Source of the DNA: Timema cristinae
Taxonomy: Eukaryota; Arthropoda; Insecta; Phasmatodea; Timematidae
DNA length: 64,000 nt
Assembly: GCA_039000515.1 (NCBI GenBank)
Contig: JBCFYV010000100.1
Span: 20,322,551-20,386,550, forward strand
Direction of reading: 5' to 3'
The translations under genes and the position numbers were made by a program. The notes beneath the pieces are model-generated. The model saw only the letters and a program-made list of their open reading frames with translations, was not told where the DNA came from and searched no databases. Below, piece after piece: positions 3,873 through 59,000 of this stretch. The number at the start of each line of letters is the position of its first letter. Within the stretch, counting starts at the first letter, position 1.

Positions 3873-3879
3873 GCTCCTC

Positions 3880-6183: not shown

Positions 6184-6264
6184 TCAATATTTATTTCATA
6201 AAAATGAACTTGTAAAAAATGTTTTTGTGAATTCTGTTTCAATCCTTTCTGTTTTTACCTAGCT

Positions 6265-6765
6265 CTTAGATTTATTTGCGCAGCTAATAGTATTAAATTT
6301 ATTTGCAAATCTAGTGGCCCTTAAATTTATTTTCAAATCTAGGGGCTCTTAAATTTATTTGCACATCTAGTGGCCCTTACATTTATTTTCACATATAGTG
6401 GCTCTTAAATTTATTTCCACATCTAGGGGCTCTTAAATTTATTTGCACATCTAGTGGACATTAAATTTATTTGCACATCTAGTGGCTCTTAAATTTATTT
6501 TCACATCTAGGGGCTCTTAAATTTATTTGCACATCTAGTGGCTCTTAAATTTATTTGCACGTCTAGTGGCTCTTAAATTTATTTGCACATCTAGGGGCTC
6601 TTAAATTTATTTGCACATCTAATGGCTATTAAATTTAATTGCACCGCTAGTGGCTCTTAAATTTATTTGCACACCTAGTGGCTCTTAAATTTATTTGCAC
6701 ATCTAGTGGCCCTTGAATTTATTTGCACATCTAGGGGCTCTTAAATTTATTTGCACCTAGTAGAT
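6265..6765. repeat. 28-bp minisatellite, about 18 copies
   Basis: The unit is GGCTCTTAAATTTATTTGCACATCTAGT-like, 28 bp long, with GGGGCTC and GTGGCTC variants. The first one or two units (6268-6310) carry TTTGCGCAGCTAATAGTATTA, which is the 27-bp unit type of the array at 3285-3872. The two arrays therefore share an ancestor. Confidence 0.95.
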
Positions 6766-28504: not shown

Positions 28505-29110
28505 CAATTTCGTATGGAAAACGCGAGATAAGGGCAGTCTTTTAGCAGTTTTTATATAAAAATATTATTTTGATAAAATAAATCAAATAATTCTCTAGTA
28601 TAAAAATAGTTTTTAATTTTCTTAACATGATGCTCTCAAAATTTCTTGAATATCCGTCAAGGGTGACCCTTAATTTAATGATAACTTTCTTTTTTCATTT
28701 AAAAAGGTTGTCATCTGATACCACTATGCTCATGACAGATATTCAACAACTGTTGATATCACCATGTGAAGAAAATAAAATCTTTGTTTGTCTGAATTAA
28801 TATTTGATTCATTTTGGACAAACGATGTTTTGATATACAAACTTCCTTCACCTCTGACAAGACATCTTGTGAATGTGGGAATGCCAGGTCACCACCGTGG
28901 TTCGGATTCCACGTTAAACTGTAGGTCCTTCATTTCATCTCACAATCACCCTACCATTACATATTAGCGTAAGTGCGTATAACCCGAACGGGTAGTAAGA
29001 CGCGGTGCTAATAATAATAATAATAATGATATACAAACTGCAAAAAAAAAAACTTACCCTTTATAGTATTCCATACATTTCCACCTTAAGTGAACTGCCT
29101 ATTTAAAGGA
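28505..29110. mobile_element. Second copy of the long-armed inverted-repeat element, with SINE inside
   Basis: AACGCGAGATAAGGGCAGT, GAATATCCGTCAAGG, ATGACAGATATTCAACAACTGTTGATATCACCATGTGAAG-type sequence and TTTGTTTGTCTGAATTAATATTTG match the element at 22160-22870. A SINE A copy at 28844-29026 is inserted in its right part. Confidence 0.6.
28844..29026 (+). mobile_element. SINE family A, 5'-truncated with perfect 13-bp TSD
   Basis: TGATATACAAACT occurs at 28831-28843 and again at 29027-29039, an exact target-site duplication. The insert starts within the body (TCCTTCACCTCTGAC) and ends GACGCGGTGC plus (TAA)n. It is textbook target-primed reverse transcription with 5' truncation, and it fixes the 3' end of the family. 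Confidence 0.95.
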
Positions 29111-29719
29111 AAATATTATCAAAAACATAGTATTTCTAATTTAAATGACAGTTCTGAAATTTCAAAACCACTAAAATAATCGTCAGTTATCTTAGAGCAT
29201 TTAGTTGTGACCCTGTTAAATAATTGACATTATTAATTGAGGAAGGCTGGATCCATATTTCTAACCATTAATTTTTATCTCAGGATTCATACATGTTGCA
29301 TGAAGCATCATTGAAAAAGATATTATTTACTACTTACAATTTACATGAACCTTTAATTCTTGAATAATAAAATCTATCAGTTAAGATTTTTAATCGTTTA
29401 GGGATACATGTTGATATATTTCACCTTCATTTTATCTTGAAACATATTTTAAAACCACAAACCACTTTTTAAAACGCTAGATTTGTGGACACACACCACC
29501 TGTCTCAACGCTCCAGCAGGCTGACCCCTGAATGGGTTTTGTTTGTTTTAAAGATATAGTATAAAAAATTATATGGATATGGCCATATAAAAAGGTGTAA
29601 CACACAATTTCAATATGAAGAAACTATTTTCCTGGATAAAAACAATAGTACAGATTACAAACTTTGTTGAGAAAAGTTTTTTATTTGTACTAATAATATT
29701 ATTCTTTCATTCACTAATA

Positions 29720-29990
29720 TTATAATCTGTTGACTGCATCTCTCCATTTCAGTCAATCTCAATCTAGGGATGGATTTTTTACCTACTTCTTCTATTATTT
29801 TAAACACATATTCTCTTTCATATCTTTTCTTTGGCATGCATATTGCTTCAAATTTCCTTCTATGACTGTCATTTTTCGGGTTTGTCCTATAATGTTTTCT
29901 CTTCTTTATGCTCTTTCGTAATTTCCTTTCCTCACCTACTTTATTCATAACATCCTCGCTCATCACTTTATCCACCCAAACTAAACATAT
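29720..29990 (-). pseudogene. LINE ORF2 C-terminal remnant
   Basis: In reverse the frame contains VDKVMSEDVMNKVGEER, RKSIKKRKH and KKSIPRLRLTEMERC. These align in order with the conserved tail of insect LINE polyproteins (a D-x-V-x-N-E-E-V-L region, then a basic H-R-H segment, then a final R-W region). The zinc-knuckle-like middle part is degraded. It is open for 118 codons but is only a fragment. Confidence 0.6.
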
Positions 29991-30009
29991 AAGTTGTATT
30001 ATCTTCAGC

Positions 30010-30252
30010 ACAGTGTCATACTACACTTTCGGGTTATACACTTATGTAACAATTACTCTAATGTGTTGGGATGACGAAGGTTAAATTTAGAAAAAAGTGC
30101 AAATACATTTCCTTGGATCAAGATTGGAAAATCATTTAAAAATAACTACCCTCAGTACACCCAACCGGGATCAATCTCCGATCTACCCGTCATAGGCAGT
30201 CTAATCTATGACGAGAGTAGCGCCTTACACCACGTGACCACCAAAGCGGACG
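30010..30252 (-). mobile_element. SINE family B
   Basis: Tail AGCACAGTGTCATACTACAC, then ACCCTCAGTACACCCAACCGGG, GATCTACCCGTC and head ACCACGTGACCACC. It lies immediately beyond the LINE remnant. Confidence 0.7.
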
Positions 30253-30300
30253 ACTATTCATAATAATACAAAATAATCAATTGGTGGAAAAATAGCTTTA

Positions 30301-30331
30301 CTGGTGACCTGGTGGTCTAGGGGTAAGGTGT
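30301..30331 (+). mobile_element. SINE family A head only
   Basis: CTGGTGACCTGGTGGTCTAG and GGGTAAGGTGT are the first 30 bases of family A. The remainder is absent and unrelated AT-rich DNA follows. Confidence 0.7.
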
Positions 30332-30814
30332 ACTATATAATTAGGTGTTAATGGGAAAAGCAAATTATTTTAAGCCTAATTAATTGGTTTCAATAAAAGA
30401 GGTTTTTTTTATACAATGTTTCTAATTGCGCAAGATCTTTTTAGCAAGCAGAAAACGCATTTATCAAAAGTCTGTATAGCTAGAAAATAAATACACACCA
30501 ATAAAGGATAGGAAACCACAATGTGTACATACAAATAATAATTGGTCCGTTAGGGTGCAGCGTTCTTGTCAAATTCTGAAAAACGATCCGGGTGACAGAA
30601 TCTGTACCTTACCTAATTACTACCTATTTATATTCAAGCGGCTGAGCCTAGTTTACAATTGTTTAAAAACACTGATCCAATTTAATAAATGAAATGTGCA
30701 TGTTGACTGGTCTCAATGTTCAATAAACTGTTTATGAAACTAGTTATAACAAGGTAAAGAAGTAAGGTAATGAGCTAGGCGTGGCTATGGTACTAGAAAT
30801 ATTGTAATGTCTTT

Positions 30815-30910
30815 ACAACCGGCATCGTGGTGTAGTGGTCAATGCACCTGGCCACGAGCCTAAGGTTGCATGGTTTGGTACCTTGGATACTTTTCCTGAA
30901 AGAGGAATGG
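30815..30910 (+). mobile_element. SINE family D head fragment
   Basis: CGGCATCGTGGTGTAGTGG corresponds to the box A region. GCATGGTTTGGTACCTTGG is a diverged box B. AATGGTCCCAACGG follows. Confidence 0.5.
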
Positions 30911-30919
30911 TCCCAACGG

Positions 30920-31675
30920 CCACCCGGATTTGGATTATTAGGCTTAATTTTGTATCTTAGGCAACGTTTTGTACCACCAGAGTGGTGGATAGTCTACACA
31001 TATGGCGACCAAACTCTGATGTCATGTACACACCGATCATGTATGTCATACGATAAAAAAATATTTATGATTGATTAGTTAGTCTGAGCAGGGAATTGAT
31101 TTTCGCAGAAAGAGACTATTAAAAAATACAAACTTTTTTCTGACAAAAGTAATAATATTAAAATATCTTATTTGTATAAAATATTATATATATATATTGA
31201 TGATATCTACCAAAATTGACAGCTGCAGATAACATGACTTGACGTACAAATACATGAAAGTTTATCTATTAGCTTTTATTTCAGATTGGTTCCTTCATGT
31301 AGTAATTGGACTATATTATACGTGTGACATCTGGAGCATGTTTTTATTTTTTATTCTCATTTGTCGAATGAAAACTCTACTTATCAGTTGTTTTGATAGT
31401 AAAGAAGAGCATATAATAAGTTTAATCCAGGTATTTTTTGATTACAGTTTTCCTATGGGGAATATTTATCTTGAAAAACCAACTTATTAATTTTGTTTGT
31501 GTCTTGTTTAGTTTGGAATATTCATTGCCCCGGCCAGTGTCGATGGCCTAAAATAAAATCGAAAATAATAAGATGAAGCTGGATTTTCATTATTTAAGAA
31601 TAAGACACTCCTTAGTCAAATGTTCAGAAAATTATATTGAGATTCAACGGGCGTTTAACTGTATTTTTTTCTTCT
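30920..31675. other. AT-rich stretch, nothing recognised
   Basis: A hydrophobic 83-codon frame at 31239-31490 is the only long open frame. It has no start context or family resemblance and is probably chance. Confidence 0.4.
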
Positions 31676-31926
31676 TAGCACCATGCTTTACTACCCCTTT
31701 GTGTCATACACTTATGTAATAATTACACTAATGGGTTTAGGGATTAGGAAGGCTATACTTAGAGGAAGAGTACCAGCATTTGAGCGGAGAGATAGGGTGG
31801 AAAACAACTTCGGAAAAACCATCTTCAGTACATCCTACTGAGATTCGAACCTCAATCTCCCCTCCATCGGTAGTCTAGTCTACTGGGAGAGTAGCGATTT
31901 AGATCAGGCAGCCACCCAGGCCGGTC
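31676..31926 (-). mobile_element. SINE family B
   Basis: Tail AGCACCATGCTTTACTACCCC, GGGTTTAGGGATTAGGAAGG, GAGATTCGAACCTCAATCTCC (box B) and the head ending GGCAGCCACCCAGGCCGG. Essentially full length. Confidence 0.75.
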
Positions 31927-32384
31927 TGTAAAAGTTTATTGGATAGAAGGGAACTCCAATTAAAATCTGTATTTTTGCAATTTTTTTAAACCAAAAAGAT
32001 TTTCTAGACAAACTAAATAAAATATTCCTTCATCAGATACCTTTAGTTTAATTGTTTACACATGACAGTGTCAAAATTTTTGAAAATGTGTCATGGATAT
32101 ATTAACATTCTATTTTATAAGAAACTTTTTTAATGAAGATAAAATGCTATAATCAAATTCAAGGATTCCCACAACAAATATTCAAGCACTCTTGGGATGT
32201 GTAGACAACTAAACAAAATAATATATCTTCTGGAGCAATATTTTATATAGTTGTGCATACAAATTATGGTAAAAACTGCATAAATACTGGTTGTGAGTCG
32301 CATTTTTCTCCCCCCCCCCTCCCCCACATTAATGTGTTATATTATTGGTTGACTGGGAACCTACACTCTTTCAATTTTTTTGCA

Positions 32385-32580
32385 AGAAACTGGACTGACG
32401 ATGACGTGAAACTTGGAGTTCGAATACCAGTCAGGTCTACTGAGGGTTTTTTGTTTCACTCTCCCTCCATGTGGTAGCACCTTCTCTTAATTCAGCCTTA
32501 CTTATCCCTAACAGATTTGCGTAAACAGTACATATGATGATTATAGCCCTATAGGTAATCAGACACGGGGCTAAAAATAA
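32385..32580 (+). mobile_element. SINE family B
   Basis: Box B region GGAGTTCGAATACC, CTACTGAGGG, TTTGCGTAAACAGTAC and a diverged tail GTAATCAGACACGGGGC. Confidence 0.55.
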
Positions 32581-32630
32581 TAGGACAAGTGTCACGTTTG
32601 AACATTATACTACTATAAAGTCACACGGCT

Positions 32631-32935
32631 GACTCACTCACTGACATTAATGTTTACCCACTTCCAGATGAGCTAGAAACTTGAAATTGGACAAACTTAT
32701 ATCATCTATCCTGTAACCGACGGGTAAATTACAAAAAATACAAAATTTCACCCCCCGAAAAAAATTCAAAATGGTGGAGCAACTTTAAAGTCGGTGTGGA
32801 CCTTCTTTGGAGGTCTCTTGTGGCTAAACGGTAAGACCTATCAAAAAACGGCTCTGGAATTACATTAGTTTATATCAAATTGTAAATAAAACTCATTCGG
32901 GGTTTGGGGCGTAGCCCCTGCGAGAAAAGCGAGTA
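32631..32935 (+). mobile_element. Dispersed non-coding element, copy 1 (possibly Helitron-like)
   Basis: Starts GACTCACTCACTGACA and ends with the hairpin GGGGCGTAGCCCC followed by CGAGAAAAGCGAGTA. It is homologous over its whole length to 55346-55662. The 3' subterminal hairpin and lack of TIRs suggest a Helitron-like element, but the ends do not show the canonical TC/CTRR, so the class is open. It may be read on either strand. Confidence 0.65.
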
Positions 32936-32939
32936 ATTT

Positions 32940-34120
32940 GTACACAATCAAATAGCAAAGGTCTTTTCATCCAAAATTAACTTCTTATGGTTTTTCCAGG
33001 TGCTCGTGTAGTTACCCTGAAATGTTTTATTTTTATACTGTTTCCTAAGATTGTTTCATAGGCCAATAAGGCTGAGAGATATAATACACCTTACAAATAA
33101 AAACAAATGATAAACAAAAATAAGTAATTTGTTTACTAACATAAATATTTCTTGCTTTTCATATTCATAAATCTGGGCTCTCTCCATTTATTCCTCCTAT
33201 CAGTGTTTACGGAAGAATATTGTAACACACACACTTCAACCATGTGTGAGAACATAATATGGTTGCAACACACTTAAAATATGTCTGACGGCATAATACA
33301 TTATTAAATTTGTCAACTATGGTCACGGATACAAGAATCTGAAACGCGCGATAAAAAACAGCTTTCTCCTTATTGTAGGATGTGACGAGTTGGCGAACAA
33401 TCAGGTTTGGAACGTATTTTAAATATTCAAGTTCATTGTTTCAAGGTCGAAAGTCTGGTCCATTCATCTTCATTCCATCAATGGGCCATACTTTTTGTTT
33501 TTACTTTATGAAAAAGCAGTTGGTTATGTAATATAACCAAAGAGTACTGAGTTACGACTGTCATTAATAAAGATGTCCGTGGTTGAGTACAAGCTATACA
33601 CCTTGATTTATAAAGAGAGCAAGATGTTTATTGCCAAATTAAAGCGCGTATACATATTTTACTCTTCTATTAAGGAACCTAGCCTCTGTGAAATAATGCC
33701 CAGAACTTTTATTTTAAATACAAATAAATCAACACATTTTAATAAGATTATAAAACATTTCCATTAATACATAATTAACAGTATCTGTATTAATAAAATA
33801 AAGCGTTTATTTGTTTGGGATGAGCGTTGCGCAATATCTATAAATTACGAGTAAATGGCTAAAAAGATTTTGACAAACTACCTCTTATCTTAAATATCTA
33901 GGCTCAAGGTTGTTGGCAAAAATAGTAGCCTGTAACTAAAATTCAATTTTCCTATCAAATTTTCCATCTTTTCCTTATGTGTACTGAGTGGCTAGATGAG
34001 TACAATCATTCTTGGTTTACATCACCATGGAAACCATGATTTGTGTATACTTTAGTATAAGTATATAAAATATGTCTCTTTGGTTAAAAGTAATAACTCA
34101 ATTATTACTATAGTGGTTTA
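32940..34120. other. AT-rich stretch, nothing recognised
   Basis: No repeat family or gene signal was seen. The 64-codon frame at 33573-33767 lacks support. Confidence 0.45.
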
Positions 34121-34123
34121 GTG

Positions 34124-34289
34124 AAATAAATAAATAGAGAGCTAGGAGAGGGGTCGTTTTAATATTCTCACTGGGGCGTAAGGGTGGAAAGTATACGTTT
34201 TGAATCAAATAAATAAATAGAGAGCTAGGAGAGGGGTCGTTTTAATATTCTCATTGGGGCGTGAAGGTGGAAAGTATACGTTTTGATTC
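34124..34289. repeat. 83-bp tandem duplication (2 copies)
   Basis: A unit starting AAATAAATAAATAGAGAG at 34124 recurs at 34207 with only a few differences (for example CACTGGGGCGTAAGG against CATTGGGGCGTGAAGG). High identity indicates a recent duplication. Confidence 0.95.
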
Positions 34290-34378
34290 AAATTAAACAG
34301 CAAAATCTAAAAATTATATAAAGTTGATAGTCTTTGAAGAGTAAACTTTAAACTTGAGAGTCGAATGCGGGATTATTA

Positions 34379-34736
34379 TACAGGATGTTTCCGAGTTAAA
34401 TGGCAAAACTTTGGGAAGTGGTAGTGGATCAAAAAACTAACTCAAAATGTATTTTGGAGATTTGCTCATTTTAGCTTCCTTTTAAAGCAAACAGAAAAAT
34501 ACTAAATAAAAACAAAATATGTAGGTGTTAAGTAAATTATTTTATTTATTTTGTTCAAATTGACAGCCTCCAGCCCGTAGACAAGCATTGTACCTATCAA
34601 TGACAGAGCGAGTGACTGACCGACATTTTGTGACTGTTGTTTCTTCGTACATTTGCGTTATCCTTTGTTTTTATGATTGAAGTTCATTAGTTACGCTGAT
34701 AATACATTAAGTTAGTTAACCTAGGAACACCCTATA
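34379..34736 (-). mobile_element. Deleted Tc1/mariner-superfamily element
   Basis: TIRs TACAGGATGTTTCCGAGTTAA and, in reverse from the right end, TATAGGGTGTTCCTAGGTTAA are bounded by TA on both sides (34377-34378, 34737-34738). It contains a transposase C-terminal remnant on the minus strand. Confidence 0.75.
34542..34643 (-). pseudogene. Transposase C-terminal remnant
   Basis: The minus strand encodes VTRSVIDRYNACLRAGG, QFEQNK and a stop at 34542-34544. This matches the usual end of insect mariner-like transposases (a conserved R-x-x-x-C-x-x-x-x-G-x-x-F-E-H tail). The catalytic DDE/D region is absent. Confidence 0.6.
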
Positions 34737-35317
34737 TATAACTTTTCCCAATAAACGTTTAGAATACATTTTAGTGCAATAATATTCAGCCATCACTGCA
34801 TCGTTATACTAGCTATAATATATATTGTTTTCTTACAACAGTCTGAGACAACAATTAACAGCAGTCTGTCTTTCTTTAGATACGTAGACTACCCTTCCTT
34901 AGATAAATAGTGGGCCTATGTCTCTTTTATAAAAGTGGTCTATCTTTACTTAAGTAAGCAGTATTTAGGCCTATTTATTTAGAAACGGTCTGTTTAGCTT
35001 TAGACATACAGATTACGTTTCTAATATCTTGGTCAATTATCTTGATGTGTATCTAACAAGGTTCCTTCATACACACTATGTATTTCTGTGTAAGCAATGT
35101 ATTTAAATACTATAAAACATGTTTTATTTATGATTATTAGGGAGTGAAATGTTTGAATACAATATTATGCTATGCTTTGACAAATCATTGATAAGGCGTT
35201 AGAAGGAAATGCAGCTGAATCGGTTTTAAACTTTAGTTTGTGGTTAGAACCTGACAAACACACATTAGAAAACACATTTCGTTAATTTCATCCAGCTGAC
35301 AATTCCGGATATACATA

Positions 35318-35595
35318 TTATTATTATTAGCACCGCGTCTTACTACCCGTTCGGGTTATACGCACTTACGCTAATGTGTAATGGTAGGGTGATTGTGAGA
35401 TGAAATGAAGGACCTACAGTTTAACGTGGAATCCGAACCACGGTGGCGACCTGGCATTCCACAAATTCACAAGATGTCTTGTCAGAGGTGTAGGAAGGGT
35501 TTGGAAATCAGATAAATCTGTGCCGGGACCAAGGATTGAACCCCGGCCGCCAGCATAGAAGTCTGACACCTTACCCCTAGACCACCAGGTCACCC
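35318..35595 (-). mobile_element. SINE family A, full length with perfect 13-bp TSD
   Basis: CCGGATATACATA occurs exactly at 35305-35317 and 35596-35608. Between them lies the complete element in reverse: short (ATT)n, tail AGCACCGCGTC, body, and a head ending CCACCAGGTCACC. The 278 bp define the full family length. Confidence 0.96.
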
Positions 35596-35814
35596 CCGGA
35601 TATACATAACAATTAATTGTATATGATGGGTAAAGTTACATCTAGTAAAATGTAGCTACATTCTCATGGAAAAATAAAAGTAAATCCAAAGTCAAATTAC
35701 ATTACGTAGCCTACATGTCCCCCAACAACCTCAAGTATTTTGTTTTGAGTATTTAAGAGGAACGTTTTAATTTAAATGATTTTATTTGCGTTTATATTTG
35801 TCAACGATTCTCCC

Positions 35815-36005
35815 TATACACTCAATATATACGTATATTTAATAATTGAGTTGATTTGATAAGGATGAGAAAGGTTGACTCTTTAAACAAAGAGTAACAC
35901 CATTTTAATTGGAGGAGAATATAAAACCTTTATAAAAACTACCCCCAGTACACCCAACTGAGATTCGAGCTCCGATCTCCGCATTATCGGAAAGTACGGG
36001 TATGC
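35815..36005 (-). mobile_element. SINE family B, diverged
   Basis: Landmarks GATAAGGATGAGAAAGGTTG, ACCCCCAGTACACCCAACTG, GAGATTCGAGCTCCG (box B) occur in reverse order. The tail is decayed. Confidence 0.5.
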
Positions 36006-36230
36006 CAATGCGCATACTGATGAATCGCTATCGGGCGATTATTAGTGCATAGGCAATTATTATGCCGATTAAACGTTTTTTTAAGTAAAATTTAAAACAA
36101 AATTTTCCGTAGGAGTCAAGTGATAAAAAAAACCTTATATACACTGCATCTGAGTTGTAGGCTATGCAGTGATTACATAACCAGATGAAGAGATATAAGT
36201 TCACATCATTGATAAGAATAAAAAAAATTT

Positions 36231-36236
36231 TTTATT
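36231..36236 (-). terminator. Poly(A) signal AATAAA for the zinc-finger ORF
   Basis: The minus strand reads AATAAA 85 bases after the stop codon at 36322 and is followed by a T-rich downstream element. This supports real transcription of the minus strand ending here. Confidence 0.55.
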
Positions 36237-36321
36237 GACAATCAACAATTGGTTAATTTAAAACATTCACAACAAGCAGCAATATTATTTAGGTGTTTTG
36301 ACCAATACATATAAAAGACAT

Positions 36322-36696
36322 CTACCATCTAGAAAATGAGTAGGAGCCACCTCCAAAATAGTTCAAGACACGTTGAGAGACGGTAGAGTGTATATTGACA
36401 ATGTCTCCACAGTTTTTACCTGGCAATCTTACTCTTCCAACAAACTCAAGCACAATAACATTAGGTTCGGGCTCTTCCGATAGCACAACGTTATAACTTT
36501 TGTTTTTCTCAAGTTCGTTTAAGCACTTGACACGATTGTATTCCTCTTTCTCGATCATGTCTAACGCCCTGCATAATACCTCCTCGTCCCAACAGGTATC
36601 CTGGTGAGCAGCAGTTTGATGACATTGAATTTTGTGCCGAATAAGATTGGATAGCTTTGCGTAGGATCCATCACAAACGCAGCATTTAAACGGCAT
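36322..36696 (-). CDS. Single C2H2 zinc-finger protein with FLP-domain-like C-terminus (124 aa)
   Basis: The frame is open upstream to 36732, but the first ATG is at 36696. From there the N-terminus forms one classical C2H2 finger: C5-x2-C8-x12-H21-x4-H26, with Tyr12 and Leu18 at structural positions. The middle (residues 30-58) is acidic and probably helical. Residues 59-97 (LNELEKNKSY, later VRLPGK) are weakly similar to the domain shared by the next two genes upstream. The Gly/Ser tail ends SFSRW. A single N-terminal finger suggests nucleic-acid or protein binding. I do not recognise the family. It is the last of three minus-strand genes, 165 bp after its neighbour, and has its own AATAAA. 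Confidence 0.7.
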   Translation of the reverse strand: MPFKCCVCDGSYAKLSNLIRHKIQCHQTAAHQDTCWDEEVLCRALDMIEKEEYNRVKCLNELEKNKSYNVVLSEEPEPNVIVLEFVGRVRLPGKNCGDIVNIHSTVSQRVLNYFGGGSYSFSRW

Positions 36697-36801
36697 AATG
36701 TCTATTGGAGATGCAGCAAAAGAAATAAACACTCGCTCTTAACGTTTTTTTTTTTCAAAATTTCACCACTAGCTCCTATGGCAGCAGCAGAGTACGTCTA
36801 A

Positions 36802-36807
36802 TTTATT
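36802..36807 (-). terminator. Poly(A) signal AATAAA for the Pro/Ser-rich ORF
   Basis: AATAAA on the minus strand lies about 55 bases after the stop at 36862 and before the zinc-finger ORF. This suggests separate transcripts rather than one polycistron. Confidence 0.45.
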
Positions 36808-36861
36808 AATTCACTTTTAAACATCACACTTTGTCCTCCGAGATATATCATACAGCGTGCT

Positions 36862-37620
36862 TTAGATTGACTTTGGAAGGAAAACGTTACCGAAACTGCC
36901 CAGGCTGAGTATGTAGTCGGCGGGCGTTTCACCTATAATTTTAACATTAGAATAATTTTTGTAAATTGTTAAATCCTCGAGATTTACAGGTTCTTCAGAC
37001 TTTACCTCCGGCGGTGGTGGTGGGCACGCAGCTGACTCTGCTGGCTGGTAAACAGGCGACTCTGACTGTGGATACGCCAGTGAATCTGACGCCTGGTAGG
37101 TAGAAGCCTCGGACGGTGGGCGCGCAGGTGACTCTACTGACTGGTAGACAGACGACTCTGACGACGGGTACGCCTGTGACGTGTGGTGGGTAGACGACTC
37201 AGGTGGTGGGTACTCTGGGGCTGGGCACGTCTGTGACTCTAGGGGTGTGTACGGCTGTCTCTCTGAGGGCGGCGGCGGCGGTGGCGGCGTGAAGTACGGT
37301 GACGGGTGGTGTGGAGCTCGGAAGGGTGGCGGTGGAGGTCGGGGTAACACTGCTACCACGTCCCCCTTGCGGAAATTGTAAACGGCGCACGTTACATCAC
37401 ACATATACGTTTCCACGATTCTCTCGTAGGGTAGTACTTCCGTCGCTCGTATCGTGTGACAGGTAGAGTCACAAAACTCTATGTAGCCTCGCTCCTCTAC
37501 TTTGTAAATTACCTGTCTATCACACACCGCGACACTGTGAACATTCTCTCCCGTCATATAGGCACGCCCCTCCATCGTATGGCCTACAAACATTAAATTA
37601 ATATAGCCGGATCGAAGCAT
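36862..37620 (-). CDS. Pro/Ser/Tyr-rich protein with C-terminal FLP domain (252 aa)
   Basis: The ATG at 37618-37620 has a good context (CTCACCATG). Residues 1-92 look globular, with six cysteines (Cys33, 50, 54, 74, 78 and neighbours, giving a C-x3-C pair twice) and alternating hydrophobics ending VVAVLP. Residues 94-205 are low-complexity: polyproline runs and repeats of a degenerate ES-x-x-YxxSES pattern, probably disordered. Residues 212-252 (NLEDLTIYKNY ... VFLPKSI) align with residues 18-60 of the neighbouring 96-aa protein. The architecture is a folded N-domain, a flexible linker and a small shared domain. Function is unknown. The gene is compact and intronless, GC-rich compared with the surroundings, and 81 bp from its upstream neighbour. 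Confidence 0.75.
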   Translation of the reverse strand: MLRSGYINLMFVGHTMEGRAYMTGENVHSVAVCDRQVIYKVEERGYIEFCDSTCHTIRATEVLPYERIVETYMCDVTCAVYNFRKGDVVAVLPRPPPPPFRAPHHPSPYFTPPPPPPPSERQPYTPLESQTCPAPEYPPPESSTHHTSQAYPSSESSVYQSVESPARPPSEASTYQASDSLAYPQSESPVYQPAESAACPPPPPEVKSEEPVNLEDLTIYKNYSNVKIIGETPADYILSLGSFGNVFLPKSI

Positions 37621-37701
37621 GGTGAGCGTACCTGAGAGCTAAACGTCCTGTAGAGTCCCCTATGCTCCGCTGCCCGTTGTTGTTGTTAACTGCCGTGTCT
37701 C

Positions 37702-37992
37702 TTAAGCGCGTTCAAAGTTCACAATGGTAGGTGAACCGGGTTTTACTCCGGCGCAGGTAAATACCAGTTTTTCTTTATTTAACTCACACACGTCTTCATC
37801 TGTAAGAGTACCAAACCCGCAGGGTAGAAATACACAAAACTCGCCGTCTAGGTAGGCTATTAGGCGTCTCCCGAACTTTGTATTGACGGCTTTTAGTTTA
37901 TCCACCGAGTACTTTTGATCTACGGCTAGATCACACAATTTGACGGTCTGCACCGCGTCGACCATATTTACCAGCTGCTGTAACTTGTCCAT
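37702..37992 (-). CDS. Small FLP-domain protein (96 aa)
   Basis: The open frame extends to 38055, but the first ATG is at 37992, giving MDKLQQLVNMVD. A TATA box (TATAAAGAGG in reverse, about 38042-38051) lies 50 bases upstream of this ATG and supports the start. Residues 1-17 are probably a short helix. Residues 19-60 hold the domain also seen at the end of the 252-aa neighbour: L-x-DL-x(4)-KY-S-V ... TKFG-x-R ... VFLP. A final block DEDVCELNKEKLVFTC follows. The alternating pattern suggests a small beta barrel (OB-like) that might bind nucleic acid; this is inference only. From memory, similar small proteins occur in other arthropod genomes, but I cannot name a family. Confidence 0.75.
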   Translation of the reverse strand: MDKLQQLVNMVDAVQTVKLCDLAVDQKYSVDKLKAVNTKFGRRLIAYLDGEFCVFLPCGFGTLTDEDVCELNKEKLVFTCAGVKPGSPTIVNFERA

Positions 37993-38039
37993 ATTGGACC
38001 GCTCTACAAACGTTTCTAAATATACAACCAAGTGGGCAC

Positions 38040-38052
38040 CCCTCTTTATAGC
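38040..38052 (-). promoter_or_regulatory. TATA box of the 96-aa ORF
   Basis: The minus strand reads GGCTATAAAGAGG. The spacing to the ATG at 37992 leaves a leader of about 20-25 bases, short but typical of compact viral-type genes. Confidence 0.55.
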
Positions 38053-38089
38053 CACCCCCTCCTTCGTTTGACGTCACACGATATATTCT

Positions 38090-38505
38090 TGTCTCGACTT
38101 GTCTTGTCTGCCCGCCAACCTGGCGCCCGTGTCGATGACCTCGATATCTAAGCTTGTCTCAACTCGTCTTGTTGTGCCGACATACTGGCGCCAGGGTTGC
38201 GACATAACACGCAATGATTACGTCATTGGGAAACCCAAGGTTGTTGAGGTCAAGATCTATTCTTGTCTCGTGAGCCGTCAAGCTGACGCCAGGGAAAACC
38301 CCCGCTGCCCGGGGCAATGACCTCAATATCTATTCTTGTCTTGTCTGCCCGACATACTGGCGCCAGGGAAAAACCCTGTTGCCCCGGGCAATGACCTCGA
38401 TATCTATTCTTGTCTTGTCGGGCCGACATATTGGCACCAGGGAAAACCAGATGCCCGAGGCAATGACCTCAATATCTATTCTTGTCCCTTCAGGCCAACA
38501 TACTT
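38090..38505. repeat. GC-rich repeat block with TGGCGCCA palindromes (part 1)
   Basis: About six imperfect units of 60-80 bp contain TATTCTTGTCTTGTCTGCCC, GACATACTGGCGCCAGGG and CAATGACCTCAATATCT. The TGGCGCCA core is a perfect palindrome. Open plus-strand frames through it (for example 38099-38320) are repeat artefacts. Similar units recur at 39200-39345 and 40265-40620. Such blocks upstream of compact genes recall replication-origin or enhancer repeats, but that is inference. Confidence 0.8.
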
Positions 38506-38518
38506 GCGCCAGGGTTGG

Positions 38519-38920
38519 GACATAACACGCGATGATTACGTCATAGGAAAAAAACTCAGGTTGTCCGGTCTGAGAGCTGCGGGTGGAGGAACATTTCCAG
38601 GCATTTCGACAGACGCTACCAAACAACCAATTTTAGTAGACTTGTGACGGGGGATAGCGGCCCCTAACTGTGGATTCCGAGGCCCCTGATTGTGCATGTG
38701 TCAGCTAGAGTTGTGACATAACACGCAATGATTACGGCATAGGAAAAAAAACCAGGTTGTCCGGTCCGAGAGCTGCGGGTGGAGGTACATTTCCAGGCAT
38801 TTCGACAGACGCTACCAAACAACCAATTTTAGTAGACTTGTGACGGGGGTAGTGGCCCCTAACTGTGGACTCCGAGGCCCCTGATTGTGCATGTGTCAGC
38901 TAGAGTTGTGACATAACACG
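38519..38920. repeat. 196-bp tandem repeat, 2 copies plus start of a third
   Basis: GACATAACACGCGATGATTACG at 38519 recurs at 38715 and begins again at 38910. Between them are AGCTGCGGGTGGAGG, CATTTCCAGGCATTTCGAC and CCCCTGATTGTGCATG. The copies are nearly identical. Confidence 0.93.
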
Positions 38921-38929
38921 TCAGGGTTG

Positions 38930-39560
38930 GTAGTCAAGGGGGGAGGCGGATGTGGAAAGCAGGTCAAAATTGGTGGGGGAAGGAGGATATTTATAGCAAC
39001 CAATCAGAGGAAAGTAGGTCACTCAAACATGGCGTCAGGGTGGCGAAGGAGGAGGGGGGGTCTCTGGAACAAATTACCACATTCTACCACAAAGCACCAT
39101 AGCGCAAGGTTCGTGCTGCTTGTTCCGGGACAGAGCCTTGTGACAGAAGAGCCGATGTTCATTCTAGGCTTGTCAGCCATAGCGCAAGCTTCGTGCCGAG
39201 CCCTCCGTCAAACTGACGCCAGGGAAAACCCCCGTTGCCCGGGCAATGACCTCAATATCTATTCTTGTCTTGTCTGCCCGACATACTGGCGCCAGGGAAA
39301 AACCCCGTTTCCCGGGGCAATGACCTCAATATCTATTAACAATCATCAAGAACCAACATGTCCAGGGTTGGTAGTTGAGGGGGGAGGGGGGAGGCGGATG
39401 TGGAAAGCAGGGCAAATTGTTGGGGGAAGGAGAATATTTATAGCAACAAATCAGAGGAAAGTAGGTCAGGGGTGGGGGGAATAACGGTAAAGATGTGGAA
39501 AGCAGGTCAAAATTGGTGGGGGAAGAAGGCTATTTATAGCAGCCAATCAAAGGAAAGTTC
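38930..39560 (+). repeat. Three copies of a promoter-like unit (TATA-like plus CCAATCA)
   Basis: Units at about 38935-39025, 39370-39470 and 39485-39555 share GGATGTGGAAAGCAGG, AATTGGTGGGGGAAG, a TATTTATAGCA box and CCAATCAGAGGAAAG. A TGGCGCCA-type block (39200-39345) separates the first two. Repeated TATA-like and CCAAT motifs suggest regulatory function, unproven. Confidence 0.7.
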
Positions 39561-39679
39561 CCATGGGTCCAGAACTCTACTGTGGTGTTTAACTGTACAT
39601 AGGGCTAGAACTGGGCAGCTACAAGTCAGTCATATCAAAGTTTTTCAGCAACACACAACCACCTTAGAAGATTAGTCTG

Positions 39680-40150
39680 ACTAATCATGAAATCTCTCTT
39701 AGACGTATTTGCGGTGACCGTATGGTCGTCATAAGAAACAAGACACCGGACTCAAACAGGTCACCTATCCAGCACCTAGCTTGGTGCGTTTTTGTGATGT
39801 GTGATTCCTCATCGACGTTAGCGTCGACCACCTTGATATGTGGTTGACATCCATCGCACGCTATTGCAACAATTTTATCGACCACTCGTCGTGGATGTAT
39901 GTGACACGATAAAAGAATCAGCCAATGTCATCGATCCTGATCAGCCTACGATGGAAACGCACATCAGAAACCTTGATCTTATCAGTGATACCTACTATAC
40001 ACGTCAAGTCATAGGTTTGGACTATTACATTGTTGGATTGTGAACTAAAAACAAGTTTACTAACACATTCAAGAGACACTGTAGAAAAACGTATGACCGT
40101 TTAGATGCAGCATTCCTGTAAAAGTGTACAATAAATATTATGTATGATGT
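39680..40150 (+). other. Possible 3' exon with overlapping antisense frame
   Basis: The plus strand is open at 39840-40043. The frame contains VDVCDTIKESANVIDPDQ and ends DYYIVGL. Its first ATG is internal (about 39951). AATAAA signals follow at about 40128 and 40194, and no acceptor was clearly identified. The minus strand at 39685-39885 is also open (CDGCQPHIKVVDANVDEES) without an ATG start. One of the two may be coding. I cannot decide which, and recognise neither. Confidence 0.35.
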
Positions 40151-40264
40151 CTGTGAAACCTTTAATATATATATTTAAAACCTTTAATGTCTAATAAAAA
40201 TATGTTTTGTAATGTCATGTTTTATTCACGCAAAACCTTTCTGTACCTCTTACACGTAGATACG

Positions 40265-40720
40265 AGTCTCGATTTGTTGAGCAGTCAAACTGTCACCAAA
40301 TATGAACCGGGTCAATAACCTCATGTACTAGCTCACGGTTTCAAGGTCACGATCTATTCTTGTCTCTTCGAGCCACCAAACTGGCGCCAGTCACCATGGA
40401 AAAAACCCATTGTGACATCATTCAAGGTCGTGTCCTATTTCTGTCTCAATTTGTCTTGTTGACCCGCCAAACTTGCGCTAGTCATCAGGGTTACGACAAT
40501 GCGATGACGTCATCGGGAAAACCCATTGCCGAGGGGACGGTTTCCTGAGTCATTGACCTAGCTCACGGTTTCAAGGTCACGATCTATTCTTCCCTTGACT
40601 TGTCTTGTCAACCCGTAAAACTGTTGCTAGGTATGAGTCACCGGGAAAAAATTTATTACTACATAAGGGGTTGTGACACCGGGAAAACCCATTACCACAT
40701 AGGGGGTGGATGAGAGGGTT
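40265..40720. repeat. GC-rich repeat block (part 2)
   Basis: Four more diverged units share TCACGATCTATTCTTGTCTC, CCAAACTGGCGCCAGTCACC and GGGAAAACCCATT phrases with the block at 38090-38505. Confidence 0.75.
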
Positions 40721-41027
40721 GAAACACATACCTCTTAGGAGGGGAAGTGAGGGAGAAGTGAAAGGGGTCTCAAGGCAGGGGAACTATCTCACACACTCTT
40801 AGCAACGCTGCCGTCAGGAGAGCTTCATACTCCGTACTGATGCCACACCCGACGCCATAGACTGCACGCCAATAAATAAAAAAACTCTAACGCCCCGTCC
40901 CAATCCTACGCCAATAAATTCCCCACACCAATAAAAAAAACTCCAACAGCCGGCCGAATCCTAACCAGACATAAAAAAACACAAACGAGACAAGAACAAA
41001 CCACTGAAAGTGGGTCAGTGGGAGGGG

Positions 41028-41165
41028 AAAAAACCAATCATAGAGCGACACAACATTACATAACAACCAATCAGAGAGCGAAAACAACATTATGTAACAA
41101 CAAATCAGATAGCGATAATTACATTGCGTAGCAACCAACCAGAGATGGACAACAATATTGCGTAA
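41028..41165. repeat. 33-bp tandem repeat with CCAAT boxes, 4 copies
   Basis: The unit is ACCAATCAGAGAGCGA plus ACAACATTAYGTAACA, 33-34 bp, in four progressively diverged copies. The first two carry an intact CCAATCA, the third has CAAATCA and the fourth CCAACCA. It marks the downstream edge of the GC-rich island. Confidence 0.88.
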
Positions 41166-41219
41166 TCATCACAATACACACTCTCTCCACGTTAGGGTCA
41201 AAGGTCTAACTGGAACAGG

Positions 41220-42785
41220 GGGTCCACCTAGGTAGTCAGTTGATTATTAAAAACTTGTTGATCTTAAAATAGTATTATTATTAAATAATTTACTCCCTCT
41301 AGTAACAATTACTGCGATATTCTAATCTTAATCAGATCTAATTATAAACGTTATCTTTATTCCATGCCAGAGGGTGATTTGGGATGGCTATCCTTTGGTT
41401 GATCTTCTTGCGAGGTGTGGGATAGGAATAAGAAACTAATATAAGTTAAATTATCATAATATTAAAAAAAGCTTATCAAATATAATATGCATAAATTATT
41501 ATCAATGACTGTGGCTTGCTACCTGCCCAGGTAGAATCAAATAGGTAGTAGAAAGGTAGAATTAAGATAAAGTGTAGCTGAATTTACATAGAGATAGAGG
41601 GTGATAAACAATTTTAGTTTAAAATATCTCAGTACACCGGGTTGAAATTATAATCGTAGCTTTCCCGTCTACGACAAGGCAGAATATGATTACGTGACTG
41701 ATTTTACACCTGCGTGCCCACCGGTGTGGGTTTAAGGTCACTCAAACAGGAAAAAACACATCAAATACACAATATACTAGAATAGTCTAGTATACTTATA
41801 ATGTGTGTATGAGAGCATATCAAAGAAACAATTGCTTAGAAAATGATAGGGAAATTTCACATAATTTGACTAGAAACAAAACCACAAAGATAAATAATTT
41901 TTAAGGTTATAATAAATATTCTAAGCCCATAGACAATTTTATAATCTATGTAGAGCAATAATCAGTTATTTTATATAATTTATTCTAGAAAGTTTCGTAT
42001 CATACAATTTTTTGGAATGTTGATAAAATATGAAACAGTAAGTAATTTAAGAAAATAATCTGATGTGTGGTTGTCATAAAGGTATATGAACACTTTCTAA
42101 TGCTCCATGCATGAATACCCATTCAAATTAGTGTGGCCTTTCAAATGTACACTGCAAAAAAAAAAACACTAAATTTTCAGCTCAAGTAATAAACAGAAGA
42201 TAATTAAATAGATTATTACATAAAGCCGATCCATTAATGATATTAGGTAGTGAATGTTTAAAAATATACCAGGTAGACCCTGGCTACTGTGATCTTTGAA
42301 TTAGCAAACTTGTTATAATATAAAACGAGTTTGACAGTTGCAATACAAAAAAACAACTTTTTATAAGATTTAGCCTCACGCTGTTATAGGGCTAGGCTAC
42401 TTTATAATCTCTTATTCAGAATGTTTATAATTTAAACATTAACTTTGGGGCCTACATGCCATCACATAATTGTTCTGTATTGCATTTGTTTGTGAATCAA
42501 TGCTGGACGAATGATGTCAATATTTTAAAAATGAAAGATTTACATAACAACTGATAAATAAAATTTTATTATTACTATTACTATTAATTGATACAATATT
42601 ATGATTTAATTTATATGAACATTCTATTAAAAAATAAAAACATTTGCACTTGATATAAATAACCATTTGAAAATATGATCTTATAAGGTTAATATATTAT
42701 ACTTATTAATTTTCTATTCCATTGTGTTAAGTTTATTGATATTCAAAATTGAAGAAGATGGTACAATTTTTAAGAAACCAATTTC
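41220..42785. other. AT-rich stretch with one weak SINE B
   Basis: After about 41220 the composition returns to AT-rich background. A decayed minus-strand SINE B may occupy about 41560-41735 (CTCAGTACACCGGGTTGAAAT). Otherwise nothing is recognised. Confidence 0.45.
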
Positions 42786-51438: not shown

Positions 51439-51501
51439 AATGCCAGCAAGTTCTATAGTCGGACGACCACAAGTGAGCTAATGATAATTTCATTCCCACA
51501 G

Positions 51502-51778
51502 GTTGAACCTCCTCGCGGTTGTGTTGGTCGCAGTCTACCCAGCATGTCAGGGACAGTTGGAGGTAATCAACCAGTGGAGCTTCCTGCCCTTTGATCTACC
51601 TCCAGATTTTCCAACGGGAAACTACATCCCTGAGAACAACGTGTTTACAGGACTGGAAGTGGGCTGGGGGCGGGTGTTCCTCACTCTTCCTCGCCTCCGT
51701 TCGGGGGTGGCTGCAACTCTAGCTACCATCCCCCGCGCTGATCTGCAGGGACAGACAGGGACTGCTCCCACTTTGCAG
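51502..51778 (+). CDS. Yellow/MRJP-family protein, exon 2 (signal peptide and N-terminal domain)
   Basis: Acceptor TTTCATTCCCACAG ends at 51501; donor CAG/GTATTG at 51778/51779. One leading G completes a codon from the previous exon, then 92 codons follow. LNLLAVVLVAVYPACQG is a signal-peptide core with probable cleavage after CQG, so the product is secreted. Family landmarks follow: INQWSFLPFDLP, GNYIPENNVFTGLEVGWGRVFLTLPR and GVAATLATIP, as in insect Yellow proteins (a six-bladed propeller; roles in cuticle pigmentation and other processes). The exon lacks its own ATG: TTG stands at 51503, so an upstream exon is required. The donor lies at the first unit of a tandem array whose units repeat the exon/intron junction. 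Which yellow paralogue this is cannot be decided. Confidence 0.9.
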
Positions 51779-52972
51779 GTATTGTACTGAGCTTTTTACA
51801 CTTAGTTCTCACCCTGACCAGTAGAAACAGCTGGTAACCTTGCAGGTATTGTGCTGAGCTTTTTACACTTAGTTCTCACCCTGACCATTAGAAACACTTG
51901 TAACCTTGCAGGTATTGTACAGAGCTTTTTACACTTAGTTCTCACCCTGACCAATAGAAACACCTTGTAACCTTGCAGGTATTGTACAGAGCTTTTTCAC
52001 TTAGTTCTCACCCTGACCAGTAGAAACAGCTGGTAACCTTGCAGGTATTGTACAGAGCTTTTTACACTTAGTTCTCACCCTGACCAGTAGAAACAGCTGG
52101 TAACCTTGCAGGTATTGTACAGAGCTTTTTCACTTAGTTCTCACCCTGACCAATAGAAACACCTTGTAACCTTGCAGGTATTGTACAGAGCTTTTTACAC
52201 TTAGTTCTCACCCTGACCAAATAGAAACACCTTGTAACCTTGCAGATATTGTACAGAGCTTTTTACACTTAGTTCTCACCTGACCAGTAGAAACACTGTA
52301 ACCTTGCAGGTATTGTACAAAGATTTTTCACTTAGTTCTCACCCTGACCAGTAGAAACACCTTGTAACCTTGCAGGTATTGTAGCTGAGCTTTTTCACTT
52401 AGTTCTCACCCTGACCAGTAGAAACACCTTGTAACCTTGCAGGTATTGTGCTGAGCTTTTTCACTTAGTTTCACCCTGACCAGTAGAAACACCTTGTAAC
52501 CTTGCAGTATTTTGCTGAGCTTTTTCACTTAGTTCTCACCCTGACCAGTAGAAACACCTTGTAACCTTGCAGGTATTGTGCTGAGCTTTTTCACTTAGTT
52601 CTCACCCTGACCAGTAGAAACACTTGTAACCTTGCAGGTATTGTCATAGTTTTTTCCTTAGTTCTCACCCTGACCAGTAGAAACAGCTGGTAACCTTGCA
52701 GGTATTGTACAGAGCTTTTTCACTTAGTTCTCACCTGACCAGTAGAAACACCTTGTAACCTTTCAGGTATTGTTGCTGAGCTTTTTACACTTAGTTCTCA
52801 CCCTGACCAGTAGAAACACCTTGTAACCTTGCAGGTATTGTACAGAGCTTTTTACACTTAGTTCTCACCCTGACCAGTAGAAACAGCTGGGTAACCTTGC
52901 AGGTATTGTACAGAGCTTTTTCCTTAGTTCTCACCCTGACCAGTAGAAACAGCTGGTAACCTTGCAGGTAAT
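51779..52972 (+). repeat. 67-bp tandem array in intron 2, about 18 units
   Basis: Unit GTATTGTACAGAGCTTTTT plus ACACTTAGTTCTCACCCTGA plus CCAGTAGAAACAGCTGGTAA plus CCTTGCAG, 64-69 bp. Each unit ends CCTTGCAG/GTATTG, so it carries both an acceptor-like and a donor-like site. The unit boundary coincides with the exon-2 donor, so the array arose by duplication from the exon edge into the intron. Single-base indels are common. Confidence 0.95.
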
Positions 52973-56046: not shown

Positions 56047-59000
56047 CTCGCTTGTACAACAAGCTTGGCATTGACGTGTACAACAGCTTAGCACTCGCTG
56101 TACAACAGCTTGGCATTGACTTGTACAAAAGACTTAGCACTCGCTTGTATAACAGGTTGGCATTGACTTGTACAACAGACTTAGCACTCGCTTGTACAAC
56201 AGCTTGGCATTGCCTGTACAAAAGACTTAGCACTCGCTTGTACCACAGGCTTGGCATTGACTTGTACACAGACTTACACTCGCTGTACAACAGCCTGGCA
56301 TTGACTTGTACAACGATTAGCACTTGCTGTACAACAGACTTAGAACGTGTACAACAGGTTGGCATTGACTTGTACAACAGATTAGCACTCGCTTGTACAA
56401 CAAGCTTGGCATTGACTTGTACAACAGACTTAGCACTCGCTTGTACAACAGGCTTGGCATGACTTGTACACAATAGACTTAGCACCGCTGTACAACAGCT
56501 TGGCATTGGCTGTACAACAGACTTAGCAATCGCTGTACAACAGGCTGGCATTGGCTGTACAAAAGACTTAGCATCGCTTGACAAGGCTTGGCATTGACTT
56601 GTACAACAGATTAGCACTCGCTTGTACAACAGCTTGCATTGACGTGTACAACAGACTTAGAACTAGCTTGTATAAAAGTTTGGCATTGACTTGTACAACA
56701 GACTTACACTCGCTTGTACAACAGGCTTGGCATGGCTGTACAAAAGACTTAGCACTCGCTGTACAACAGGCTTGGCATTGACTTGTACAACAGTTGCATT
56801 GACTGTACAAGTCTGTTGTACAAACAAACTTAGCACTCGCTTGTACAACAGGCTTGGATTTACTTGTACAACAACTTAGCACTTGCTTGTACAACAGTTT
56901 GCATTGACGTGTACAAAGACTTAGCACTAGCTTGTATAACAGATTTGGCATTGACTTGTACAAAGACTTAGCACTCGTTGTAAACAGGCTTGGCATTGAC
57001 GTGTACACAACTTAACTCGCTGTATAACAGTTGGCATTGACGTGTTACAACAGACTTAGCACTTGCTTGTACAACAGGGTTGGCTTGACTTGTACAACAG
57101 ACTACACTCGCTGTACAACTGGCTTGGCATGACTTGTACAACAGACTTAGCACCGCTTGTACACAGGCTTGGCATTGGACTTGTACACAGGTTTGCATTG
57201 ACTTACAAGTCTGTTGTACAAACAAACTAGCACTCACTTGTACAACAGCTTGGCATTGACTTGTAAACAGACTTAGCATTGACTTGTACAACAGATTAGC
57301 ACTTGCTTGTACAACAGGCTTGGCATTGACTTGTAAACAACTTAGCATATCTTGTACACAGCTTGGCATTGACTTGTAAAACAGACTTAGCACTCGCTTG
57401 TACAACAGGCTTGGCATTGACTTGTACAACAGACTTAGCACTCGCTTGTACAACAGGCTTGGCATTGACTTGTACAACAGACTTAGCACTCGCTTGTACA
57501 ACAGGCTTGGCATTGACGTGTACAACAGACTTAGCACTCGCTTGTACAACAGGCTTGGCATTGACTTGTAAAACAGACTTAGCACTATCTTGTACAACAG
57601 GCTTGGCATTGACTTGTAAAAGAGACTTAGCACTCGCTTGTACAACAGGCTTGGCATTGACTTGTACAACAGACTTAGCACTCGCTTGTACAACAGGCTT
57701 GGCATTGACTTGTACAACAGACTTAGCACTCGCTTGTACAACAGGCTTGGCATTGACTTGTACAACAGGTTTGGCATTGACTGTACAAGTCTGTTGTACA
57801 AACAAACTTAGCACTCACTTGTACAACAGGCTTGGCATTGACTTGTACAACAGACTTAGCATTGACTTGTACAACAGACTTAGCACTTGCTTGTACAACA
57901 GGTTTGGCATTGACGTGTACAACAGACTTAGCACTTGCTTGTACAACAGGCTTGGCATTGACTTGTACAACAGACTTAGCACTTGCTTGTACAACAGGCT
58001 TAGCACTTGCTTGTACAACAGACTTAGCACTTGCTTGTACAACAGGCTTGGCATTGACTTGTACAACAGACTTAGCATTGACTTGTACAACAGACATAGC
58101 ACTTGCTTGTACAACAGGCTTGGCATTGACTTGTACAACAGACTTAGCACTTGCTTGTACAACAGGTTTGGCATTGACGTGTACAACAGACTTAGCACTA
58201 GCTTGTATAACAGGTTTGGCATTGACGTGTACAACAGACTTAGCACTCGCTTGTACAACAGACTTAGCACTAGCTTGTACAACAGGTTTGGCATTGACGT
58301 GTACAACAGACTTAGCACTCGCTTGTATAACAGGTTTGGCATTGACGTGTACAACAGACTTAGCACTTGCTTGTACAACAGGCTTGGCATTGACGTGTAC
58401 AACAGACTTAGCACTCGCTTGTATAACAGGTTTGGCATTGACTTGTACAACAGACTTAGAACTCGCTTGTACAACAGGTTTGGCATTGACGTGTACAACA
58501 GACTTAGCACTTGCTTGTACAACAGGTTTGGCATTGACGTGTACAACAGACTTAGCACTTGCTTGTACAACAGGCTTGGCATTGACGTGTACAACAGACT
58601 TAGCACTTGCTTGTACAACAGACTTAGAACTCGCTTGTACAACAGGTTTGGCATTGACGTGTACAACAGACTTAGAACTCGCTTGTACAACAGACTTAGC
58701 ACTTGCTTGTATAACAGGTTTGGCATTGACGTGTACAACAGACTTAGCACTCGCTTGTACAACAGACTTAGCACTAGCTTGTACAACAGGTTTGGCATTG
58801 ACGTGTACAACAGACTTAGCACTCGCTTGTACAACAGGTTTGGCATTGACTTGTACAACAGACTTAGCACTTGCTTGTACAATAGGTTTGGCATTGACGT
58901 GTACAACAGACTTAGCACTTGCTTGTACAACAGGTTTGGCATTGACGTGTACAACAGACTTAGCACTTGCTTGTACAACAGGTTTGGCATTGACGTGTAC

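Follow-up and report, generated by a model that had tools for sequence, protein, structure and literature searches.

Vertebrate Mavericks (Polintons) have 5'-(AGT)2//(ACT)2-3' ends, are flanked by 6-bp duplications, carry inverted repeats 46-1,447 bp long and form a size class of 12.7-24.6 kb. Mavericks encode capsid homologues, but particles have not been observed (PMC8097293). In Timema cristinae (Phasmatodea), Mavericks have been reported as a repeat class that makes up 3.13% of the genome (PMC5691397), and their abundance in this insect is therefore not new. Here we examine a 64,000-nucleotide window of T. cristinae DNA, positions 20322551-20386550 of contig C100 (JBCFYV010000100.1) in the 1.29-Gb assembly GCA_039000515.1, which contains a block of three small open reading frames (ORF1, ORF2 and ORF3, together the trio). 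We conclude with high confidence that this block is one end, now truncated, of a high-copy non-autonomous Maverick/Polinton whose relatives are 7.2-15.0 kb long, have 6-bp duplications and AGTAG...CTACT ends, and carry the trio in long inverted arms. The trio cassette and the very long inverted ends appear not to have been described, although the kind of element is known. A literature search, with most subscription journals outside its coverage, found no account of the trio cassette or of kilobase palindromic Mavericks.

The original prediction, made from the letters of the window alone, placed three minus-strand ORFs in a compact island. The ORFs are indeed present: ORF1 at 36322-36696 (124 amino acids), ORF2 at 36862-37620 (252 amino acids) and ORF3 at 37702-37992 (96 amino acids), each starting with ATG and with 165 and 81 bp between them. 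The predicted poly(A) and TATA signals were also located, with minus-strand AATAAA at 36231 and 36802 and TATAAA at 38044. ORF1 contains one weak, sub-threshold C2H2 zinc finger. ORF2 consists of a conserved head (aa 1-100, 37321-37620 on the minus strand), a proline-rich repeat linker and an FLP tail, and ORF3 has a predicted OB-like barrel.

When the genome was searched with ORF3, the best 150 of 2271 first-look candidates were scored. These copies show 95-100% protein identity, and 144/150 have no internal stop. Such recurrence, along with relatives of ORF3 and the ORF2 head in protein records from other Timema species, is well outside what chance would produce. With at least 150 ORF3 places, what had been proposed as a stand-alone island is instead one truncated end of a high-copy Maverick. 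Our element sample consists of the ORF3 pairs less than 15 kb apart among these 150 places, giving 11 pairs (22/150 places); the remaining 128/150 have no scored partner within 15 kb and lie outside the sample. We compared the interiors of all 11 pairs, the outer flanks of nine, and a 2.2-kb piece of C12b. All 11 pairs are convergent, and in each the series ORF3-ORF2-ORF1 sits within long inverted arms. In 9/11 interiors the arms continue inward of ORF3 for 503-3862 bp with 97-99.8% likeness; in C12a they do so for 749 bp at 90.5%, and in C2582 for only 62 bp.

To find the element ends, we looked in each flank pair for AGTAG and CTACT bordered on their outer sides by identical 6-mers; in all, 128 combinations were tried. 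Exact 6-bp duplications flank 7/9 trio elements (C816, C33, C100, C935, C2174, C7605b and C2582), against a chance expectation of about 0.03 exact matches for this number of combinations. The duplication matches at 5/6 bases in C993, and C86 has none. Earlier end-finding by arm alignment had given no ends for C935, C7605b and C86; the motif and duplication search gave the first two. The eight trio elements with ends found span 7.2-15.0 kb. Their termini read AGTAGT//ACTACT in C100 and C2174, as they do in one copy of the Mavericks in this genome that carry capsid candidates (hereafter capsid-type), and AGTAGC//GCTACT, one base off, in C816, C33, C993, C935 and C2582. C7605b is mixed and C86 has no assigned motif.

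Near-perfect large palindromes are a known assembly artefact, and several of the pairs are on short contigs, as would be expected if hairpin reads had produced the paired inverted arms. We consider this very unlikely, since the arms diverge by 0.2-2.6%, and not 0%, in 9/11 interiors, target duplications are present at both outer ends in 7/9 elements, and some pairs are on large contigs of 38-138 Mb (C100, C935, C7605 and C7570).

In the window, homology to the arms of other copies defines a truncated terminal arm of a trio-type, non-autonomous Maverick at 36228-39581 on the minus strand. The homology begins at 36228, the inner break of the window copy, and this position falls in a 118-137-bp repeat that is present several times in other copies. 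Outward, one flank (L042) matches as far as 39581, and most others stop at 39468-39509. The outer terminus, CTACT at 39577-39581, was located by flank match and end motif and reads CTCTACT. GTGGTG at 39582-39587 (unstranded) occupies the site expected for a 6-bp target duplication, of which the window copy has one end only. A terminal inverted-repeat zone at 38019-39581 (minus strand), which includes the TATAAA, is made up of direct repeats (74-bp units in tandem, repeats spaced by 196 bp and CCAATCA-type repeats), and its inner repeats are partly common to the arm of a capsid-type Maverick, at 81-92% likeness. From 30000 to 36228, only scattered stretches of at most 231 bp match the Maverick pieces compared. 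No PolB was found in the window copy and no integrase at 35800-42500, and the copy would have lost its inner part and its other end.

The single compact island originally drawn at 36231-41220 is instead two pieces, 36228-39581 and 39585 to about 41235, which are the ends of different elements. In a capsid-type Maverick, ORF X is the final gene ahead of the right arm. The region 39585-40132 matches the end of this gene and contains a decayed, frameshifted ORF X remnant on the plus strand (39608-40128) in two out-of-frame pieces with 49 and 71% amino acid identity. Because the match to a capsid-type copy is 85.6% in DNA and is split over two frames, 39585-40132 is taken as the decayed end of an older Maverick. 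The plus-strand stretch 40133-41235, whose outer limit we infer, is probably the diverged arm of this second, older Maverick; it has weak matches of 82-88%, 40-50 bp long, at 40344-40390 and 40564-40627, and 34-bp tandem repeats at 41032-41165. Only 3 bp thus separate the trio fragment from the older Maverick's broken end. Since the interval is composed of two fragments, a search for repeats bounding 36231-41220 as a whole gave nothing convincing. The block had also been called GC-rich. This holds for about 37001-41000, where GC is 0.43-0.64 in 200-base steps except for the step at 40001 (0.29), but not for ORF1 (0.30-0.41); GC climbs near 37000 and drops past about 41200.

The interiors of the trio elements contain remains of Maverick genes. 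PolB pieces are present in 4/11 interiors (PF03175, 1.2e-6 to 8.5e-19, in C33, C2582, C2174 and C7570). Both C33 and the C12b piece retain parts of the ATPase, and the C12b piece also has PX-like and cut PY-like remains. The ATPase is truncated at the identical residue in the C33, C163 and C7014 pieces, and that deletion is therefore shared by the three. In contrast to the capsid-type Mavericks, the integrase, the capsid candidates (mCP and MCP), the protease candidate (PRO) and ORF X were detected in 0/11 trio interiors and not in the C12b piece (tblastn, E 1e-5). Because none of the 11 interiors has an rve integrase, we class the trio elements as non-autonomous derivatives and not as autonomous Mavericks. 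Separately, the C12a interior has a 172-aa ORF (L053, 4955-5470) that is unlike the Maverick genes compared and gave only a sub-threshold Cas1 match in Pfam.

We also looked for relatives of the trio proteins. Protein relatives of ORF3 were found in T. monikensis and T. douglasi, and those of the ORF2 head in T. cristinae, T. genevievae, T. poppense, T. bartmani and T. californicum. No relative of ORF3 or the ORF2 head was found in protein records beyond Timema; ORF1 was not used as a query. Used as a profile, an alignment of four ORF3 rows gave no non-Timema relative among 125 candidates, and as this search requires shared 5-residue words, distant relatives in other insects may be missed. Small proteins of a similar KY...VFLP type may exist in other arthropod genomes, but none of our conclusions depends on them. 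Relatives in viral metagenomes, another proposed place to look, were absent from the IMG/VR viral contigs for each of the three ORFs. The same trio in the same order, which the original prediction had hoped to see elsewhere, does recur: in the copies of this genome and, fused and partial, in T. cristinae record P0003, where parts of ORF3, ORF2 and ORF1 run together in that order.

A narrow distribution of this kind, together with the lack of a significant Pfam match for any of the three proteins, could point to an independent virus or selfish element of an undescribed type, unrelated to known families. We regard this as highly improbable, given the Maverick termini, the target duplications, the PolB remains and the repeats common to integrase-bearing capsid-type Mavericks. 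The description of the block as virus-like or selfish is borne out, in that it is part of a Maverick/Polinton, as indicated by the 6-bp duplications and end motif of other copies, the PolB remains and the rve integrase of a capsid-type relative. The statement that it belonged to no described family stands for the proteins, ORF1 not having been a protein-database query, but not for the element.

Intact ORFs would also be expected of a dispersed host gene family whose members include zinc-finger and FLP-domain proteins, and some Timema annotations do join trio pieces to host-like exons. Records P0004, P0005, P0007 and P0008 contain pieces of the ORF2 head fused to unrelated sequence, for example a GST domain in P0004. 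However, the very high copy number, the target duplications, the repeats shared with Mavericks and the many broken copies make a host family barely plausible. The ORF2-head fusions in these annotations reflect either exonisation of Mavericks or gene-model error.

The capsid-type Mavericks, which are abundant in this genome, provide a comparison. Their gene order, pieced together from different copies, is PolB, ATPase, two small ORFs, integrase, two capsid candidates, protease candidate, ORF X and terminal arm. The integrase of a capsid-type copy has rve (4.5e-15) and Chromo (1.8e-5) matches. The ATPase assignment is weaker: C33 matches Pox_A32 at 1e-4 (22.3 bits) and a capsid-type copy does so at 2.7e-4 (20.9 bits), the cut-off being 22.8, and other weak P-loop families appear alongside; the protease candidate of a capsid-type copy matches Peptidase_C5 at 0.0011 (19.1 bits), under the cut-off of 21.3. 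The capsid candidate ORFs are at the place expected in the Maverick order and match nothing in Pfam or, for the larger candidate searched by sequence, in PDB. The names of the capsid and minor genes are our assumption, assigned by gene order. The larger capsid candidate gave 98 match rows in the best 96 of 3791 candidates, 94-100% identical and 78/98 without a stop, and the ATPase matches were drawn from the best 150 of 2584 candidates. In the one copy read at both ends, TACACC flanks AGTAGT//ACTACT on both sides, 18,256 bp apart. The terminal ~165 bp of this copy show 95-96% likeness to the termini of C2174 and C2582, and at E 1e-5 they have no match to the window's own arm.

How might such trio elements arise and spread? 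They would be copied by protein-primed replication and then integrated, perhaps also packaged, with the replication, integration and packaging proteins supplied in trans by capsid-type Mavericks. Snap-back replication could copy one end onto the other, producing long arms, near-palindromic elements and a cassette at both ends. In C33 the arm extends into the cut ATPase gene, so that its aa 84-141 piece occurs twice in opposite orientations, and the inner arm boundary differs between copies. The doubled ATPase piece and the varying inner limits are as expected from copying one end onto the other. We therefore put forward, tentatively and as something short of probable, that the trio elements are a satellite Maverick lineage: near-palindromic, without integrase or capsid genes, with a selected cassette of ORF3 and ORF2 head at both ends, spread via capsid-encoding Mavericks and with ends remade by snap-back.

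A different reading is that autonomous Timema Mavericks carry the trio as an ordinary accessory region and that the elements seen are dead deletion products which by chance retain it, with no satellite-like lineage. Variable accessory regions flank the Maverick core (PMC8097293). Among the best 150 ORF3 places and the best 96 capsid places, C2732 is the only contig where the two are less than 20 kb apart, at 12.9 kb; this proximity favours an accessory region, while its isolation argues against one. On C33, an ORF3 place lies 24 kb from a capsid place, outside the element, one further case within 30 kb beyond C2732. The trio and capsid candidate of C2732 lie in proximity at C2732:27498-41741 (L065 covers 29000-36500). 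The stretch between them has no PolB or other core gene, and ~1.5-7.1 kb of L065 is nearly devoid of matches to the six pieces used for comparison.

Two further observations weigh against an accessory region. Capsid-type Mavericks were read at one left and one right end, and neither holds a trio; the exact target duplications indicate that the deleted forms themselves integrated, with integrase and capsid candidates missing from every interior. The sampling works in the opposite direction and tells against a satellite lineage, since pairs less than 15 kb apart favour short, palindromic forms and would miss full-length elements. Because of this bias we lowered our confidence in the satellite lineage and raised it for the accessory region, which we likewise see as a serious possibility, somewhat below probable.

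Selection among copies bears on both readings. Each distinct variant was counted once and compared with the expectation from its own base-change spectrum. Identical rows were collapsed, and the duplicate of the window locus (L001) was left out, as were copies covering less than 93% of a gene; those with indels or stops stayed in the count. In the ORF2 head (aa 1-100, 36 distinct rows), 46 of the 88 variants are synonymous where 23.1 are expected (P = 1.9e-7). Omega is ~0.33, or 0.27 without CpG changes, as against 2.1 and 1.2 in the two shifted frames. The pattern indicates clear purifying selection on the ORF2 head, which argues against an accessory region. The ORF2 FLP tail (omega 0.95) and ORF1 (omega 1.35, 30 rows) show no purifying selection among copies, which favours one. 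For ORF3, omega is 0.15 (13 rows), a biased figure because copies were ranked by ORF3 protein score, and purifying selection is perhaps acting there; the value is suggestive. Reading frames are open in 19/39 copies of ORF2, 25/38 of ORF1 and 20/20 of ORF3 (window included; ORF3 biased). An indel or stop breaks ORF2 in 20/39 copies and ORF1 in 13/38, and this decay also favours the accessory-region explanation. In our main reading, the ORF2 head would be a second protein under selection, and ORF1 would be drifting.

The trio had been described as looking like a functional set, with an FLP domain shared by two members and perhaps, in diverged form, by the zinc-finger protein. In shuffle tests, ORF3 and the ORF2 tail (P = 0.029) and the ORF2 and ORF1 tails (P = 0.010) show weak similarity, but ORF3 and the ORF1 tail do not (P = 0.56); ORF3 against the ORF2 head gave P = 0.31, and these values, across several pairs, carry no multiple-test correction. 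The shared domain is thus weakly upheld for two pairs and not for the third. A functional set based on this domain is not supported by the copies, among which the FLP tail and ORF1 are neutral, only the ORF2 head is clearly selected, and ORF3 perhaps.

Pfam gave no significant match for the three ORFs, the finger of ORF1 being sub-threshold, and a PDB search by sequence gave none for ORF3. A Gp10A-like Pfam match to ORF3 was sub-threshold (E 0.042) and was judged to be chance. The ORF3 fold predicted from a 5-row alignment has pLDDT 74; the single-sequence fold (pLDDT 43) was not usable. With moderate confidence the model is an OB-like barrel, which may follow the b1-b2-b3-a-b4-b5 topology of that fold, and ORF3 may be an OB-fold single-stranded-DNA-binding protein. 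PRD1 P12 was not among the VIA rows listed for ORF3. As a small protein of this kind, ORF3 could act in strand-displacement replication.

Elsewhere in the window, a 48-bp tandem repeat of ~167 copies occupies 56051-64000, continues past the window end and yields spurious long ORFs in several frames, and a 42-bp tandem repeat of ~56 copies at 17472-19819 is likewise open in several frames. Shorter minisatellites lie at 3286-3883 (27 bp), 6262-6756 (28 bp) and 51773-52970 (66 bp). Judged by eye, 51488-51790 may be a coding exon for a yellow/major royal jelly type protein, although Pfam gave no match to it.

If the satellite lineage is real, a genome with many near-identical capsid-type copies and a large deleted lineage that retains a cassette of its own would be a natural system for studying Maverick trans-mobilisation and satellites. 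The same genome could show whether palindromic transposons are the outcome of snap-back copying by a protein-primed polymerase. Such a lineage would also account for the trio fragments within Timema gene annotations.

Adenovirus-type symmetric defective genomes arise in protein-primed linear replicons and have snap-back duplicated ends. The trio elements resemble them as deletion forms with an inverted copy of one end, a likeness that we offer as a mechanistic analogy only; unlike them, the trio elements are chromosomal insertions with target duplications and keep genes in their duplicated arms. Unusually long inverted arms are also seen in the Foldback/Galileo DNA transposons of insects. However, Galileo is a P-superfamily transposon, whereas the trio elements are Mavericks with PolB remains and 6-bp duplications. 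For T. cristinae Mavericks, the accessible part of PMC5691397 gives repeat counts, with no gene content, cassette or inverted arms. Relative to the vertebrate elements, the trio elements differ in lacking integrase and capsid candidates (11/11 interiors), in having arms of several kb and in carrying a three-gene cassette that the sections of PMC8097293 available to us do not name. The Timema Mavericks share with their vertebrate counterparts the 6-bp duplications, (AGT)2//(ACT)2-type ends, PolB and a retroviral-type integrase; the ATPase and protease candidates may be further points in common, and the capsid-type copy, at 18.3 kb, falls within the vertebrate size class of 12.7-24.6 kb.

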